Assembly: GCA_036280995.1 (NCBI GenBank)
Contig: DASUPQ010000494.1
Coordinates: forward strand, 1-38,840
Length of the DNA stretch: 38,840 nt
Source of the DNA: Actinomycetota bacterium
GTDB taxonomy: Bacteria; Actinomycetota; CALGFH01
Direction: 5' to 3'
The notes beneath the pieces were generated by a model that was not told where the DNA came from, did no database searches, and saw nothing but the letters and a program-made list of their open reading frames with translations. The translations under genes and the position numbers were made by a program. Positions 11,498 through 23,089 of the stretch are shown here, piece by piece (position 1 is the stretch's first letter; the number at the start of each line of letters is the position of its first letter).

Positions 11498-12397
11498 CTA
11501 CACCCCGACCGGGTGCCAGACGGTCTTGATCTCGAGGAAGGCGGCGATCCAGTAGGGGTCCTGGCCCTTGGCGTCCGACAGCCAGTCGCGGGCCGACAGC
11601 TTCACCGGCGGAACGACCCGCTTGACGTTCTCGGCCGCGGCCAGCTCGGTCTCGCGGTACAGGGCGAGGTCGAGCCCGGCCAGGTCGAGGGCGTTGACGT
11701 CCTGGTGGGCGGCCAGGGGGCCGACCAGCTCGGCGGCGAAGCCGGTGAGCAGGTTCACCACCCCGCCGGGGAGGTCGCTGGTGGCCAGGACCTCGGCCAG
11801 GGTGATGGCGGGCAGCGGCCGGGTCTCGGAGGCGACCACCACGGCGGTGTTGCCGGACACGATCACCGGGGCCAGCCGCGACACCAGCCCGAGCAGCGAC
11901 GACCCGGCCGGCGCGACCACCCCGACCACCCCGGTCGGCTCGGGCACCGAGAAGTTGAAATAGGGCCCGGCGACCGGGTTGGCCGACCCGAACACCTGGG
12001 CCAGCTTGTCGGCCCACCCGGCGTACCACACCCACCGGTCGACCGCCTTGTCCACCGCCTCGGCGGCGACCCGCCGGGTCACCCCCTCGGCCCGCGCCAC
12101 CTGGTCGACGAACTGCTCGCGCCGCCCCTCCAGCATCTCCGCCACCCGGTACAGGATCTGCCCCCGGTTGTACGCGGTCGCCCCGCTCCACCCGGGCGCC
12201 GCCTTGCGGGCCGCCTGCACCGCGTCCCGCACGTCCTTGCGCGACCCCCGGCAGGCGTTCGCCCACGGCTTGCCCTTGTCGTCCACGACCAGGTACGACC
12301 GCCCCGACTCGGTCCGTGGGAACTTCCCCCCGATGTACAGCTTGTAGGTCTTGCGCACGTCCAGCCGTTCGCCCTCGCCCACCGCCGCCTCCACCAT
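11498..12397 (-). CDS. Aldehyde-dehydrogenase-family pseudoenzyme (deoC-linked second paralogue)
   Basis: About 299 residues. It aligns by eye with the N-terminal NAD-binding part of aldehyde dehydrogenases (YKLYIGGKFPRTESGRSY, DVRDAVQAARKAAPGWSGA, GNTAVVVASET, LPGGVVNLLTG), but the substrate-side residues are missing: PWNFP is replaced by APAGSS, the catalytic Lys of LKPAE by VVASE, and the region that would carry the Glu and Cys nucleophile is absent. The C-terminus is AAFLEIKTVWHPVGV. As I recall, Actinobacteria often carry exactly such a short homologue beside a full aldehyde dehydrogenase and deoC, so it is probably intact rather than truncated here. The start is uncertain (ATG 12397 or GTG 12439). 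A role as a structural or regulatory subunit of the full enzyme is inference. Confidence 0.75.
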   Translation of the reverse strand: MVEAAVGEGERLDVRKTYKLYIGGKFPRTESGRSYLVVDDKGKPWANACRGSRKDVRDAVQAARKAAPGWSGATAYNRGQILYRVAEMLEGRREQFVDQVARAEGVTRRVAAEAVDKAVDRWVWYAGWADKLAQVFGSANPVAGPYFNFSVPEPTGVVGVVAPAGSSLLGLVSRLAPVIVSGNTAVVVASETRPLPAITLAEVLATSDLPGGVVNLLTGFAAELVGPLAAHQDVNALDLAGLDLALYRETELAAAENVKRVVPPVKLSARDWLSDAKGQDPYWIAAFLEIKTVWHPVGV

Positions 12398-12589
12398 CCC
12401 GTGCACGGGTCGTGTCGTCCCTCGGGTCGACCATCCCACGGTAGTCCTCGACCCGCAGATAGTGACACCGCAACCTCACGCCCGGCGATCCTCAATCTCG
12501 GCGCTGCCCTGAGGTCGGTGTCCGTCGACATGATGAGCCGCCGTTGCCGCGCTGATTCAGGCCCCAGCGGCCAAGCTTGGGGATCGCCG

Positions 12590-13540
12590 CTATTGCCAGC
12601 AGCCGGCCGTGGCCGGGTCGACGACCTGACCGTCGGTACGGTGAAACGCCGACGACCAAGAGGTCGGAGACAGCGTCAGCCGGAGCACCCCGTAGTGATC
12701 ATCGTCGCGGTAGCGGGAGCCTGCCCGCGGCGGCGTCGAGAAGCGGTACAGGCTGTTGCCCCCGGTACCGACGACGAACGCCCGGACCCCGGCGCCGTAG
12801 TCCATCAGCTGGCCGAGGGGATGCAGCGGGCCGAAGCGCTGATAGACGTGGTTGTGGCCGGCGAGCACCAGATCGGCGTGGGCGGCATACAAGGCGTTCC
12901 AGAAGTACTGGGTCCGCGGGTCGTCCCGGTGCCCGGCCGGGTCGGTGTACCGCGGGTGATGCCAATAGGCCAGCGTGCACCGCTTGGCGTTGCCCTCCAG
13001 GTCGGCCTGCAGCCACCTGACCTGGGCAGAGTCCTGATCGCAGGACGGCGCGCCCGCAGCCCCGCAGTTGGAGTTGAGCGCGATGAGGTGCCAGGCGCCC
13101 AGGTCGAACGAGTAGTAGCCCTTGGCGGGATCACCGGCCAGCCGGCCGAAGTAGCCGAAGTAGCCGGCCGCCCCGCCGGCCGGGTCGCTGTAGTCATGGT
13201 TCCCCGGCGAGGGGTGGGTCCTGGCCTTGAACCGTCCCCACGACCCGGCGTAGCCGGACCGGCTGCCGAAGTCGGCCAGCTCCCCCCTGGGATACTGGTG
13301 GTCGCCGAGGGTGAGCACGGCGGTCGGGTCGGCGTCCAGGATGAGGTCGCTGGTGGCGACGTCGTTGTCCTTGCTGGCGCTGGGGTCGGGAGAGATGTCG
13401 CCGGCGGCCATGACCGTGACCGTCGCTTGGGCCTGGCTCCCCGCCGACGCCCGCGATGCGACCCCGAGCCCGGCGGCGGGCGTGAGCAGCACGGCAAGCA
13501 GCAGCCAGACGGCCAGCAGGACGAGTTGGCGTCGAGCCAT
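12590..13540 (-). CDS. Secreted metallophosphoesterase (calcineurin-like, purple-acid-phosphatase-type)
   Basis: 316 residues from the ATG at 13540 (GAGAGG about 10 nt upstream; an upstream TTG is less likely). An Arg-Arg head and a 20-residue hydrophobic stretch form a signal peptide. All five metallophosphoesterase blocks are visible: AAGDISP (Asp48), TLGDHQYP (Asp80), PGNHDYSD (Asn114/His115), YWHHPRY (His194/195) and AGHNHVYQRF (His229, His231). Four Cys residues suggest disulfides outside the cell. It likely hydrolyses phosphoesters in the cell envelope. Base composition is visibly less GC-rich than the flanks, as are the 192-bp and 236-bp gaps around it, and it sits between two aldehyde dehydrogenase genes usually adjacent, so it may have been acquired. 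Confidence 0.9.
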   Translation of the reverse strand: MARRQLVLLAVWLLLAVLLTPAAGLGVASRASAGSQAQATVTVMAAGDISPDPSASKDNDVATSDLILDADPTAVLTLGDHQYPRGELADFGSRSGYAGSWGRFKARTHPSPGNHDYSDPAGGAAGYFGYFGRLAGDPAKGYYSFDLGAWHLIALNSNCGAAGAPSCDQDSAQVRWLQADLEGNAKRCTLAYWHHPRYTDPAGHRDDPRTQYFWNALYAAHADLVLAGHNHVYQRFGPLHPLGQLMDYGAGVRAFVVGTGGNSLYRFSTPPRAGSRYRDDDHYGVLRLTLSPTSWSSAFHRTDGQVVDPATAGCWQ

Positions 13541-13776
13541 ACAGCCCGGACCTCTCAAGACGGCCAGAGGACCGTCACAGCTTCGGGGTCAGCGGTGTCG
13601 GGAGTCGGGAGAAACCAGCCGCAGGCAACACCAGGACAGCCTCCGGAACGGTGTCATCCAAGCCCCCAGAGTAGATCGCTGGGATCCCGCGATCCAGGTC
13701 TCCCGCGAAGGCCGAGTGGCCTACTACCCAGTGTGCGGCGCACCGCACCTGGATCACGGGGGACGGCCGAGGGCGG

Positions 13777-15261
13777 CTAGGACAGGTCGAGGTAGGCGGC
13801 CAGGCCGTGGCGGCCGCCCTCGCGGCCGAAGCCGGACTCGCGGTAGCCGCCGAAGGGCGAGGTGGGGTCGAAGCGGTTGAAGGTGTTGGCCCACACGACC
13901 CCGGCCCGCATGCGGTTGGCCAGGTCGAGGATGCGGCTGCCCTTGTCGGTCCAGACCCCGGCCGACAGTCCGTAGGGGGTGTTGTTGGCCTTCTCCACCG
14001 CCTCGTCGGGGGTGCGGAAGGTCAGCACCGACAGGACCGGCCCGAAGATCTCCTCCTGGGCGATCCGGTAGGACTGGGCGACGTGGGTGAACACGGTGGG
14101 GCGGAACCAGAAGCCGCGCTGGGGCAGCTCGCAGGGGGCCTGCCAGGCCTGGGCGCCGTCGGCCTCGCCGGAGGCGACCAGCTCGGTGATCTTGTCCAGC
14201 TGGGCGCGGGAGTTGATGGCCCCGACGTCGGTGTTCTTGTCCAGCGGGTCGCCGACCCGCAGGGTCGCCATGCGCCGCTTCAGCTTGTCGACCAGCGGCT
14301 CGGCGATCGACTCCTGGACCAGCAGGCGCGACCCGGCGCAGCACACGTGGCCCTGGTTGAAGTAGATGCCGTTGACGATCCCCTCGACCGCCTGGTCGAG
14401 CGGGGCGTCCTCGAACACGATGTTGGCCGCCTTGCCGCCCAGCTCCAGGGTGAGCCTCTTGCCCGACCCGGCCAGGGTGCGCTGGATCGCCTTGCCGACC
14501 TCGGTCGAGCCGGTGAAGGCGACCTTGTCGACGCCGGCGTGGCCGACCACGGCCGCCCCGGTCGCCCCGGCGCCGGTGAGGATGTTGACCACGCCCTCGG
14601 GCAGCTCGGCCTCCAGGAGGACCTCGCCCAGGCGCAGGGCGGTCAGCGGGGTCGTCTCGGCCGGCTTGAGGACGACGGTGTTGCCGGCGGCCAGGGCCGG
14701 GGCGAGCTTCCAGGCGGCCATCAGCAGGGGGAAGTTCCAGGGGATGACCTGGGCGGCGACCCCGAGCGGGGCCGGGCGGCGGCCGGGGAAGGCGTAGTCG
14801 AGCTTGTCGGCCCAGCCGGCGTGGTAGAAGAAGTGGGCCGCGGCCAGGGGCACGTCGACGTCGCGGGACTCCTTGATCGGCTTGCCGCCGTTCATGGTCT
14901 CCAGCACGGCGAACTCCCGCGCCCGTTCCTGCAGGACCCGCGCGATCCGGTAGAGGTACTTGGCCCGCTCCGCCCCCGGCATCCGCGACCACACCTTGGT
15001 GTAGGCGGCCCGGGCCGCCTTGACGGCCGCGTCCACGTCCTCCTCGCCGGCCTCGGAGACCTCGGCCAGGACCTCCTCGGTGGCCGGGTTGATGGTCTTG
15101 AAGCGCCGCTCGGACAGCGGCTCGACCCACCGCCCGCCGATCAGCAGCCCGTGGTCGGCCCGCAGCTTGACGTGGTCGGTCGCCTCGGGCGCGGGCGCGT
15201 AGTCGAGCCCCCCGAACCGGGCCGGCGCCCGATCGGTCCGCCGTTCCAGCTGCTCTGCCAT
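13777..15261 (-). CDS. NAD(P)-dependent aldehyde dehydrogenase, catalytically complete
   Basis: 494 residues, the standard length. AAGGGAG lies 6 nt before the ATG. Catalytic set: Asn176 in PWNFP, Lys199 in LKPAE, Glu273 in LELGGK, Cys307 in GHVCCAGSR, plus the cofactor motif FTGSTEVGK and the late motif EEIFGPVLSVLTF. It oxidises an aldehyde to the acid. Following deoC by 55 nt, it probably oxidises acetaldehyde released from 2-deoxyribose-5-phosphate, feeding acetate to central metabolism; that link is inference from the operon. The intercistronic gap contains a GC hairpin. The pseudoenzyme paralogue lies downstream beyond the inserted metallophosphoesterase gene. Confidence 0.93.
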   Translation of the reverse strand: MAEQLERRTDRAPARFGGLDYAPAPEATDHVKLRADHGLLIGGRWVEPLSERRFKTINPATEEVLAEVSEAGEEDVDAAVKAARAAYTKVWSRMPGAERAKYLYRIARVLQERAREFAVLETMNGGKPIKESRDVDVPLAAAHFFYHAGWADKLDYAFPGRRPAPLGVAAQVIPWNFPLLMAAWKLAPALAAGNTVVLKPAETTPLTALRLGEVLLEAELPEGVVNILTGAGATGAAVVGHAGVDKVAFTGSTEVGKAIQRTLAGSGKRLTLELGGKAANIVFEDAPLDQAVEGIVNGIYFNQGHVCCAGSRLLVQESIAEPLVDKLKRRMATLRVGDPLDKNTDVGAINSRAQLDKITELVASGEADGAQAWQAPCELPQRGFWFRPTVFTHVAQSYRIAQEEIFGPVLSVLTFRTPDEAVEKANNTPYGLSAGVWTDKGSRILDLANRMRAGVVWANTFNRFDPTSPFGGYRESGFGREGGRHGLAAYLDLS

Positions 15262-15279
15262 GGCGCTCCCTTGTTGATC

Positions 15280-15309
15280 GGGGGCTACCGCTTCGCTCCT
15301 TGAGCCCCC
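15280..15309 (-). repeat. Intercistronic hairpin between deoC and the aldehyde dehydrogenase gene
   Basis: GGGGGCT (15280-15286) pairs with AGCCCCC (15303-15309), 7-bp stem, 16-nt loop. On the - strand it lies just after the deoC stop and before the RBS of the next gene, where it could stabilise the upstream message or lower read-through. Confidence 0.35.
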
Positions 15310-15316
15310 CGAACCC

Positions 15317-16270
15317 CTAGTCCTTGGTGAAGTAGTCGCCCGACTGGTAGCGGCCGGTGCGTTCCTTGGCCAGCTGCATGAGGCAGTCGTTGAGGAGGCT
15401 GGAGGCGCCGAGGCGGAACCAGTCGGGGGTGAGCCAGTCGGGGCCGAGGGTCTCGTTGACCAGGACCAGGTGCTGGATGGCCTGCTTGGCCGTGCGGACG
15501 CCGCCGGCCGGCTTCATGCCGACCATGCGGCCGGTGCGGTCGTGGAAGTCGCGGATCGCCTCCAGCATGACCAGGGCCACCGGGAGGGTGGCGGCCGGCT
15601 GGATCTTGCCGGTGGAGGTCTTGATGAAGTCGGCCCCGGCGGCCATGGCCAGGACGCTGGCCCGGCGGACGTTGTCGAGGGTGCCGAGCTCGCCCGTCTC
15701 CAGGATCACCTTGAGATGAGCCTGGCCGCAGGCCTCCTTGACGACCACGATCTCCTCGAACACCTCCTGGTGGCGGCCGGCCAGGAAGGCGCCCCGGTTG
15801 ATCACCATGTCGACCTCGTCGGCGCCGGCCTCAACGGCCTCGGCCACGTCGGCCAGGCGCACGGCCAGCGACGCCTGGCCGCTGGGGAAGGCGGTGGCGA
15901 CCGAGGCGACCTTGACCCCCGACCCGGCAAGGGCCGCCTTGGCGGTGGCGACCAGCGACGGGTAGACGCAGACGGCGGCCACCGGCGGGACCTCGGGGTC
16001 GGACGGGTCGGGGCGGCGGGCCTTGGAGCAGAGGGCCTCGACCTTGCCGACCGTGTCCGACCCCTCGAGGGTGGTCAGGTCCATCACGGCAACGGCCAGG
16101 CGCAGGGCGGCGACCTTGGAGTCCTTCTTGATGCTCCGCTTGGCCAGGGTGGCGGCCCGCTCCTCGGCCCCCACCTGGTCGACGGCGAAGCGGCTGAGCA
16201 GCGGGCCGAGGGCGACCTGCTGCAGGAAGCCGCTGCCGGCCTCGGCGAGCCGCACGGGGGTGGTGGCCAT
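15317..16270 (-). CDS. deoC: Deoxyribose-phosphate aldolase
   Basis: 317 residues. Class I aldolase: Schiff-base Lys217 in DFIKTSTGK, proton-relay Lys253 in GMKPAGGVRT, and the conserved EVDMVINRGAF stretch with Asp154. It cleaves 2-deoxy-D-ribose-5-phosphate to acetaldehyde and glyceraldehyde-3-phosphate in nucleoside salvage. N- and C-terminal extensions (about 50 residues before the TIM-barrel start and the WFRLGASSLLNDCL tail) fit the longer actinobacterial/animal form rather than the 220-residue Firmicutes form. It starts at an ATG with GAGG upstream and heads the operon with the two aldehyde dehydrogenase genes. Confidence 0.95.
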   Translation of the reverse strand: MATTPVRLAEAGSGFLQQVALGPLLSRFAVDQVGAEERAATLAKRSIKKDSKVAALRLAVAVMDLTTLEGSDTVGKVEALCSKARRPDPSDPEVPPVAAVCVYPSLVATAKAALAGSGVKVASVATAFPSGQASLAVRLADVAEAVEAGADEVDMVINRGAFLAGRHQEVFEEIVVVKEACGQAHLKVILETGELGTLDNVRRASVLAMAAGADFIKTSTGKIQPAATLPVALVMLEAIRDFHDRTGRMVGMKPAGGVRTAKQAIQHLVLVNETLGPDWLTPDWFRLGASSLLNDCLMQLAKERTGRYQSGDYFTKD

Positions 16271-21221: not shown

Positions 21222-21313
21222 CCGGGCGGATGTGACGTCCGGCACCCGCCAGGGGCTTGCCTCCCTCACCCCGGAGGCACAAGCTCGACCCGACCGCTCC
21301 GGAGGAGGGCAGC

Positions 21314-23089
21314 ATGCAGGTCCAGCCACAGCGCTCGGCCCTCGGGGTGCGCGACCCGGCGGTGCTGGAGCCCTACCTGGAGCGCCGCCGCTACGCCGGC
21401 GGGCAGCGGATCATGGCCCAGGGGACTCCGGGCACCGAGTGCTACCTGATCACCGGCGGCGAGGTCCGCCTCGAGGTGGAGCGGCCCGACTTCGACTCCG
21501 ACGGGGTCATCGCCTACCTGGGGCCGGGCATGCTGTGCGGCGAGTTCAGCCTGCTCGACGGCCAGCCCCGCTCGGCCAGCGCCTACGCCCACACCGAGGT
21601 GACCGCCCTGGTCCTGTCCGAGGGCGGCCTGGGGCGGCTCTGCGCCGACGACCCGCCGACCGGGCTGGCCGTGCTCCGGGCCCTGGGCCGCGACGCCGCC
21701 GCCAAGGCCCGGGAGACCCGCGGCCATCTCGAGGAGTACGTGTTCGCGGCCGACATCGACCCGGCCGTCGACGAGGCCGTGGCCCGGGCCGCGGCCGCCC
21801 AGGCCGAGCTGGCCGGCTGGCCCGAGGACCGGGTGGAGGCGCTGCTGGACGACGTTGCCGGCGCCGTCGCCGGCCAGGCCGGGACGCTGGCCGCGGCCAC
21901 CGTGGCCGAGACGGGGATCGGCAACGTCGCCGACAAGACCTTCAAGAACCGCTTCGCCAGCCTGGAGGTGAACCGGACCCTCCAGGGCCGCCCCGGGATC
22001 GGCCCCCGCCCCCCCGGCGACCGCGGCGTCACCGAGATCGCCAGCCCCGTCGGGGTGGTGCTCGGCCTGATCCCGATGACCAACCCGGTGGCCACCCTGG
22101 TCTTCAAGACCCTGATCTGCCTCAAGTCCCGCAACGCCCTGATCGTCAGCCACCACCCGGCCGCCGCCGGGGTCGGCGCCCGCACCGTGACCCTCATCGG
22201 GGAGGTGCTGGCCGCCCACGGGGCGCCGGTGGCGCTGCTCCAGTCGGTCGAGCGGGCCAGCCGCACCCGGACGGCCATGTTCATGCGCCACCCCCAGGTG
22301 GCGCTGATCCTGGCCACCGGCGGCACGGCCATGGTCCGGGCCGCCTACAGCTCGGGCACCCCGGCCATCGGCGTTGGCTCGGGCAACGTGCCCGCCCTGG
22401 TCTGCGCCGACGCCGACCCGGTGGCGGCGGCCGGCGCGGTGGTCGAGAGCAAGGCCTTCGACCACGGCATCGTCTGCGGCTCCGAGGACAACCTGGTCGT
22501 CGACGCCGGCATCGCCACCCCGTTCCTGGCCGCCCTGGAGGCGGCCGGGGCGGCGGTCTGCTCGGAGGAGGAGGCGGCCAGGGTGGCCGCCGCCGTCTTC
22601 GACCCCGGCGACGGGCACCTGCGCCGCGAGGCCCTCGGCCAGCCGGCCCAGGCGATCGCCACCGCGGCCGGGGTCGGGCGCGACCGGCCGGTCCGGGTGC
22701 TGGTCCTGCCCCTGGCCCTCGACCAGGTCGACGGCCCCCTCGGCCGGGAGAAGCTGGCCCCGCTGCTGTCGCTGTTCCGGGTCCCCGGCACCGAGGAGGG
22801 GCTGGCCGTCTGCCAGCGGCTGCTGGCCAACCAGGGGGCCGGCCACACGGCCGTGATCCACACCGGCGACCAGGCCCTCCAGCAGCGCTTCGCCGAGGAG
22901 GTCCCGGCCAGCCGCATCCTGGTCAACGGGCCGGCCACCCACGGCTGCATCGGCGTCGGCAACGGCCTGACGCCGTCGCTGACCCTTGGCTGCGGCACCT
23001 TCGGCGGCAACTCGACCACCGACAACGTCACCTACACCAACCTGCTCAACATCAAGCGGCTGGCCCGGCCGTTCATCGGATCCGGGTGA
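21314..23089 (+). CDS. Fusion of a cyclic-nucleotide-binding domain with a CoA-acylating aldehyde dehydrogenase
   Basis: 591 residues, starting at the ATG behind GGAGGAGGG. Residues about 10-140 form a CRP-type cNMP-binding domain; the phosphate-binding cassette GEFSLLDGQPRSASA keeps Glu77 and Arg86, the residues that hold cyclic nucleotide in CRP and PKA. No helix-turn-helix follows. Residues about 145-591 are an AdhE/EutE-like acetaldehyde dehydrogenase: GVVLGLIPMTNPVATLVFKT, TPAIGVGSGNVPA and the nucleophile Cys388 in FDHGIVCGSED. Such enzymes interconvert acyl-CoA and aldehyde with NAD(H). No iron alcohol dehydrogenase domain is attached. The layout suggests an enzyme gated directly by cAMP or cGMP. 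I know of no characterised member. Confidence 0.87.
   Translation: MQVQPQRSALGVRDPAVLEPYLERRRYAGGQRIMAQGTPGTECYLITGGEVRLEVERPDFDSDGVIAYLGPGMLCGEFSLLDGQPRSASAYAHTEVTALVLSEGGLGRLCADDPPTGLAVLRALGRDAAAKARETRGHLEEYVFAADIDPAVDEAVARAAAAQAELAGWPEDRVEALLDDVAGAVAGQAGTLAAATVAETGIGNVADKTFKNRFASLEVNRTLQGRPGIGPRPPGDRGVTEIASPVGVVLGLIPMTNPVATLVFKTLICLKSRNALIVSHHPAAAGVGARTVTLIGEVLAAHGAPVALLQSVERASRTRTAMFMRHPQVALILATGGTAMVRAAYSSGTPAIGVGSGNVPALVCADADPVAAAGAVVESKAFDHGIVCGSEDNLVVDAGIATPFLAALEAAGAAVCSEEEAARVAAAVFDPGDGHLRREALGQPAQAIATAAGVGRDRPVRVLVLPLALDQVDGPLGREKLAPLLSLFRVPGTEEGLAVCQRLLANQGAGHTAVIHTGDQALQQRFAEEVPASRILVNGPATHGCIGVGNGLTPSLTLGCGTFGGNSTTDNVTYTNLLNIKRLARPFIGSG

Follow-up and report, generated by a model that had tools for sequence, protein, structure and literature searches.

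Most of what is known of cyclic nucleotides in bacteria concerns their signalling to transcription factors, and direct control of an enzyme is known from only a few examples. The locus described here raises the question of whether such a messenger can also address a redox enzyme of acyl-CoA metabolism directly. In a stretch of 38,840 nucleotides from an Actinomycetota bacterium (contig DASUPQ010000494.1, positions 1-38,840, referred to below as the window), one gene joins a cyclic-nucleotide-binding (cNMP) domain to a CoA-acylating aldehyde dehydrogenase. The explanation that we favour, with a probability of roughly 0.6, is that its product is an NAD-dependent CoA-acylating aldehyde dehydrogenase whose activity would be set by a cyclic nucleotide.

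The gene is a single open frame of 591 amino acids, running from an ATG at 21314 to a stop codon at 23087-23089 (Table 1). The start was assigned to this ATG, and not to the TTG upstream at 21257, because of the strong Shine-Dalgarno sequence GGAGGAGGG. The GC content at the three codon positions (0.76/0.53/0.98) is like that of the neighbouring genes. Exactly two Pfam domains were found in the protein, PF00027 and PF00171, both above their cut-offs. The same scan found no C-terminal iron alcohol dehydrogenase domain of the AdhE type (the protein stops at residue 591), no C-terminal helix-turn-helix (HTH) as in the CRP/FNR transcription factors and no GNAT acetyltransferase domain as in MtPat. 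The initial annotation of this DNA had proposed an intact cNMP cassette followed by an acylating aldehyde dehydrogenase, with no DNA-binding domain. This proposal is borne out by the Pfam scan and by the conservation of the cassette; the coordinates, the position of the cassette and the catalytic Cys388 given there all proved correct when compared with the frame, Pfam and our own reading of the sequence. The domain order is beyond chance, as it recurs end to end in five other genomes.

Table 1. Positions in the window of the fusion gene, its parts and its surroundings
Feature	Coordinates	Strand	Basis
Synteny breakpoint	21245..21246	.	blastn: G001 (same genus) 91% up to 21245, then a HAD-like gene
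Ribosome-binding site GGAGGAGGG	21301..21309	+	Ends 4 nt 5' of the ATG; read from sequence
cNMP-binding + CoA-acylating aldehyde dehydrogenase fusion gene	21314..23089	+	Frame, Pfam, NCBIfam, codon-position GC, homologues
cNMP-binding beta-barrel, aa 24-112	21383..21649	+	Pfam PF00027 E 2.6e-15; phmmer vs PDB
Phosphate-binding cassette GEFSLLDGQPRSASA, aa 76-90 (Glu77, Arg86, Ser87)	21539..21583	+	Canonical consensus match (PMC2246266)
Long CRP-type C-helix, aa 114-143	21653..21742	+	Continuous in model; GlxR/Rv3676 C-helix alignment
Hinge, aa 144-149	21743..21760	+	pLDDT <50 at 142-145; CRP hinge likeness in G139 homologue
CoA-acylating aldehyde dehydrogenase domain, aa 150-585	21761..23068	+	Pfam, NCBIfam, PDB matches, Foldseek
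Catalytic Cys388 codon (FDHGIVCGSE)	22475..22477	+	Invariant, 29 aligned relatives
His511 codon, conserved G-x-G-H motif	22844..22846	+	Invariant, 29 aligned relatives

The sensor domain of the window protein scores 56.6 bits against PF00027 (cut-off 27.5), and those of its five homologues score 43.5-53.5 bits. Residues 76-87 form the canonical cassette, G-E-x-x-L-x-x-x-x-x-R-[SAT], with the phosphate-binding Arg present. Gly76, Glu77, Arg86 and Ser87 are kept in six of six fusions, so that the loss of cassette residues from homologues, considered in the initial annotation, is not seen; Leu81, Asp82, Ala88 and Ala90 are equally invariant. The nearest solved structures (phmmer against the PDB) include two actinobacterial CRPs, GlxR and Rv3676, as well as regulatory subunits of PKA. 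The likeness to GlxR and Rv3676 extends up to the hinge. The fused C-helix aligns to theirs with a four-residue insertion and is longer by that much, and their HTH is replaced by the dehydrogenase. In the homologue from G139 the resemblance to GlxR spans the C-helix and reaches the hinge (LADHLFTDTPD versus LADLIFTDVPG), and the hinge joins the enzyme at the point where CRP proteins enter their DNA-binding domain. As judged from its sequence, the fusion protein is likely to bind a cyclic nucleotide.

The second domain matches Pfam Aldedh (PF00171) over residues 151-542 (E 9e-21). Its closest NCBIfam models are AdhE (1.9e-125), the acetylating ACDH (4.5e-109) and the sulfoacetaldehyde dehydrogenase SauS (1.2e-92), and it falls below the equivalog cut-off of each; for the acetaldehyde dehydrogenase equivalogs the scores are 365.5 versus 620.1 bits (TIGR02518) and 419.7 versus 951 bits (NF010378). 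Cys388 stands in an FDxxxxC motif and is retained by all six fusions, and the hydrolytic general-base motif is replaced by GVGSGN at residues 353-358, of which the pattern GVGxGN is common to 28 relatives. Among solved structures, the relatives of this part are acylating dehydrogenases, headed by 5j78 and 3k9d. An AlphaFold2 model built from a 29-sequence alignment, used in place of an earlier six-sequence model that was poor in the C-terminal part, has both domains folded (pLDDT 89.7, pTM 0.75). Its top Foldseek matches are 5j7i, 3k9d, AdhE and SucD, with E-values from 1e-47 to 1e-40. The Geobacillus structures 5j78 and 5j7i share the fold and the catalytic Cys, with 38-40% identity and a TM-score to target of 0.91-0.92. 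Unlike the fusion, these proteins, EutE/ACDH and the N-terminal domain of AdhE have no sensor domain. The enzyme part is predicted to be a complete CoA-acylating aldehyde dehydrogenase of the AdhE-N/EutE type.

What this enzyme acts on is a separate matter. Beside the catalytic Cys the fused clade carries C-G-[SA]-E-[HD], a motif that ends in E-Q in nearly all of the unfused relatives; it has TNP[VI]AT where the unfused relatives mostly have TNPTST, and S[FH]H[RP] where they mostly have [SA]PHP. Since the fused clade departs from the canonical enzymes in these three motifs, acetaldehyde is an unsafe guess for the substrate. The clade-specific motifs may reflect a preference for substrate or cofactor that is peculiar to these proteins.

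Five further full-length fusions were found, 46-52% identical to the window protein, in G139, G377, G161, G257 and G406. All five belong to one class, which is Nitriliruptoria going by the record of G377 (SKNO01000268.1, a Nitriliruptoraceae MAG). The fusion gene is absent from the other two of the three genomes examined in the window genome's own class, and no further fusions came from two samples of some 395 Actinomycetota genomes, which overlapped for the most part. A scan of 84,980 species by exact peptides recovered just one of the five known fusions and leaves other phyla possible. The initial annotation had suggested a search for this domain order across the Actinobacteria. The fusion does recur, but "across" was too broad, as in the sampled genomes it is confined to Nitriliruptoria and the window's genome. 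Plasmid records gave 90 matches, none spanning 80% of the fusion protein. Longer frames at two relatives of the fusion (L014, L015) had looked like extra domains and proved to be shadow frames or an upstream extension, and no sensor domain was found in the translations of L040, L033 and the other unfused relatives with long frames.

In a tree of the enzyme domain the six fusions form one clade (100/100). A tree of the sensor domain, with five of the fusions and the sensors of partner proteins, again places the fusions in one clade with the same branching order as the enzyme tree. No close relationship links the fusion sensors to their counterparts in the NDH-2 or patatin proteins described below, so the effectors seem to have acquired their sensors separately. 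Compared with the window protein, the homologues have an identity of 0.37-0.45 in the barrel, 0.30-0.52 in the C-helix and 0.52-0.55 in the enzyme. Going by these trees, the fusion is an old and stable unit whose two domains have evolved together.

The gene neighbourhood in Nitriliruptoria is informative. In five of five genomes the fusion gene lies directly 3' of a gene for an NDH-2-like oxidoreductase with a C-terminal cNMP domain (NDH2-cNMP), with an overlap of 1 or 4 nt, and genes for cNMP-patatin lipases lie beside or near it. In G257 the operon comprises a class III cyclase (GAF + cyclase), a cNMP-patatin, NDH2-cNMP and the fusion (cNMP-ALDH); the first two genes overlap by 4 nt, as do the last two. 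This full four-gene operon occurs in one genome, and the two redox genes stand together in five. By our reading, Ala in the G257 cyclase occupies the position of the substrate-specifying Lys of related cyclases, so its product may be either cAMP or cGMP. NDH2-cNMP and cNMP-ALDH are both found in the same five of 66 Nitriliruptoria genomes and neither in any other of the 66; the chance of this overlap under random draw is 1 in C(66,5), or about 1e-7, a figure that is too strong given shared ancestry. The adjacent NDH2-cNMP gene, together with a cyclase in one operon, strengthens the case for control by a cyclic nucleotide.

Two other arrangements were seen. In G377 a 1148-aa protein with a cNMP domain and an acyl-CoA oxidase/dehydrogenase (L051:13545-16991) adjoins the NDH2-cNMP gene. 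In G027, at L093:2-4023, an NDH-2 reads as carrying two FHA-like stretches besides a cNMP domain, and its gene overlaps one for a membrane protein with what appears to be a cNMP-like domain of its own.

Domains of the cNMP fold may, even with a good sequence, bind other ligands, or none. The fold could have been kept as an oligomerisation or docking module, with no sensing of cyclic nucleotides and a constitutive enzyme. The C-helix is the dimerisation element of CRP and acylating dehydrogenases are oligomers, which would suit such a role, as would the lower conservation of the barrel and C-helix relative to the enzyme. However, a mere scaffold has no need of the ligand-contact residues that are invariant in six divergent proteins, and it does not account for neighbours that themselves carry cNMP domains, with a cyclase in one of the operons. 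We regard this alternative as unlikely, although it is the most credible of those considered.

It is more doubtful still that the sensor binds some other small molecule, with acyl-CoA, NAD(H), heme or a nucleoside among the candidates, and so provides feedback from product or substrate. CooA and CprK take non-nucleotide ligands in the same fold (PMC2246266), and a trypanosome PKA is described as responsive to nucleosides (PMC10959531). Against this, the cassettes of CooA and its kin are non-canonical and that of the fusion is canonical, down to the phosphate-binding Arg.

The setting in the window's organism differs from that in Nitriliruptoria. An ABC-F gene lies upstream on the opposite strand and a PHP-domain gene converges on the fusion gene, which therefore stands outside any operon. 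A relative of the same genus, G001, has a HAD-like gene in its place, so the fusion was either gained in the window's organism or lost in G001. The adjacent RecO-UppS-ABC-F region is syntenic, which argues that the contig belongs to this genome. Only imperfect G+C-rich repeats flank the gene, with no sign of an inserted element. A CRP-like operator at 21231-21246 (two mismatches) was rejected, since 4.7 such sites are expected in the window and five were counted. A genome search showed the NDH2-cNMP partner to be absent from the window's genome; the best candidate for a hidden copy, on C803, has no cNMP domain. With partner and operon missing here, the argument from context is borrowed from a different class. 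Class III cyclase matches number 19 in this genome, 14 in the same-genus relative and 0-5 in the Nitriliruptoria genomes that were checked. That the gene is mis-assembled, or a transferred fusion without selected function away from its operon, is very improbable: despite its absence from two other genomes of the class, its location at a synteny break beside a conserved region and its missing partner, the same fusion occurs in five separately assembled genomes, once within a 5.8-Mb contig, and the window gene has an intact frame, a good ribosome-binding site, host-like codon use and every key residue.

Some further features of this genome deserve a record. On at least three contigs, a protein with a C-terminal cNMP domain and an N-terminal region without a Pfam match is paired with a class III cyclase gene (L054:4951-9332 on C193, L067:899-2011 on C792 and L053:4062-5537 on C196). 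The paired genes overlap by 4 nt on C193, where the cyclase is joined to AAA and TPR domains, and otherwise share a contig; these pairs may be a messenger circuit of their own. A Major-facilitator transporter with a C-terminal cNMP domain is encoded at L065:5482-7155. In the window itself, about 5 kb from the fusion, a DeoC-family aldolase gene is followed by two aldehyde dehydrogenase genes (11498-16270, reverse strand), and this cluster is a possible source of acetaldehyde. A similar pair of aldehyde dehydrogenase genes is found in G001 (C428).

Enzymes with cNMP domains have been described before. In MtPat and MsPat (Rv0998 and MSMEG_5458), cAMP bound at the N-terminal cNMP domain relieves the autoinhibition of a protein acetyltransferase (PMC8556138). 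As in the fusion, the cNMP domain is N-terminal on a metabolic enzyme, there is no DNA-binding domain, the hosts are Actinomycetota and the enzyme acts on acyl-CoA metabolism; in contrast, their GNAT effector acts by modifying other proteins, and the effector of the fusion is a redox enzyme. The NDH2-cNMP partner is of the same kind as the Bact_Pyrredox family of Kannan et al. (2007), pyridine nucleotide-disulphide oxidoreductases with C-terminal cNMP domains, although in that account (PMC2246266) those domains are tandem and the partner has a single one. The survey table of the same paper, as far as the available part goes, does not contain an aldehyde dehydrogenase fusion. Our literature searches found no characterised homologue; the existence of one had been named in the initial annotation as something that would undermine its idea. 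Although cNMP domains on enzymes are already known, their pairing with an acylating aldehyde dehydrogenase was not found in the literature searched, and we regard it as a new variant.

We now return to the favoured reading, a dehydrogenase under the control of a cyclic nucleotide. Its predicted reaction is aldehyde + CoA + NAD+ <-> acyl-CoA + NADH. In the sequence, a CRP-type module of barrel, cassette and C-helix ends at the CRP hinge, and the enzyme stands where a CRP would carry its DNA-binding domain. On binding at Glu77/Arg86, cAMP or cGMP would shift the C-helix and hinge and thereby switch the enzyme, or an enzyme dimer, a step modelled on the relief of autoinhibition by cAMP in MtPat and MsPat (PMC8556138). 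On balance, and reasoning from sequence, we would expect binding to control the enzyme. In the window's organism, the lone fusion would read the nucleotide pool that the cyclases of the same cell supply.

In Nitriliruptoria this signal may reach the adjacent NDH-2 and patatin lipase as well, both of which have cNMP domains. A single messenger could then tune the breakdown of lipids, the oxidation of aldehydes and the re-oxidation of NADH with no need for transcription. Coupling to NDH-2 is a tentative idea, and the passage of NADH from aldehyde oxidation to quinone through NDH-2 is a guess from adjacency alone. It is likewise conceivable, with some reserve, that the cyclase and the three cNMP-domain effectors in one operon form a "metabolic regulon" that bypasses transcription, of which the window's gene would be a detached member. 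If true, one messenger gates lipid release, the conversion of aldehyde to acyl-CoA and the re-oxidation of NADH together.

In summary, the presence of the same fusion beside other messenger-sensing enzymes in distant relatives suggests, short of proof, that a second messenger may switch metabolism directly. If its own cNMP domain does gate the dehydrogenase, then this enzyme, together with the cluster of three enzymes and a cyclase, would be a case of second messengers controlling redox and acyl-CoA flux at the protein level.
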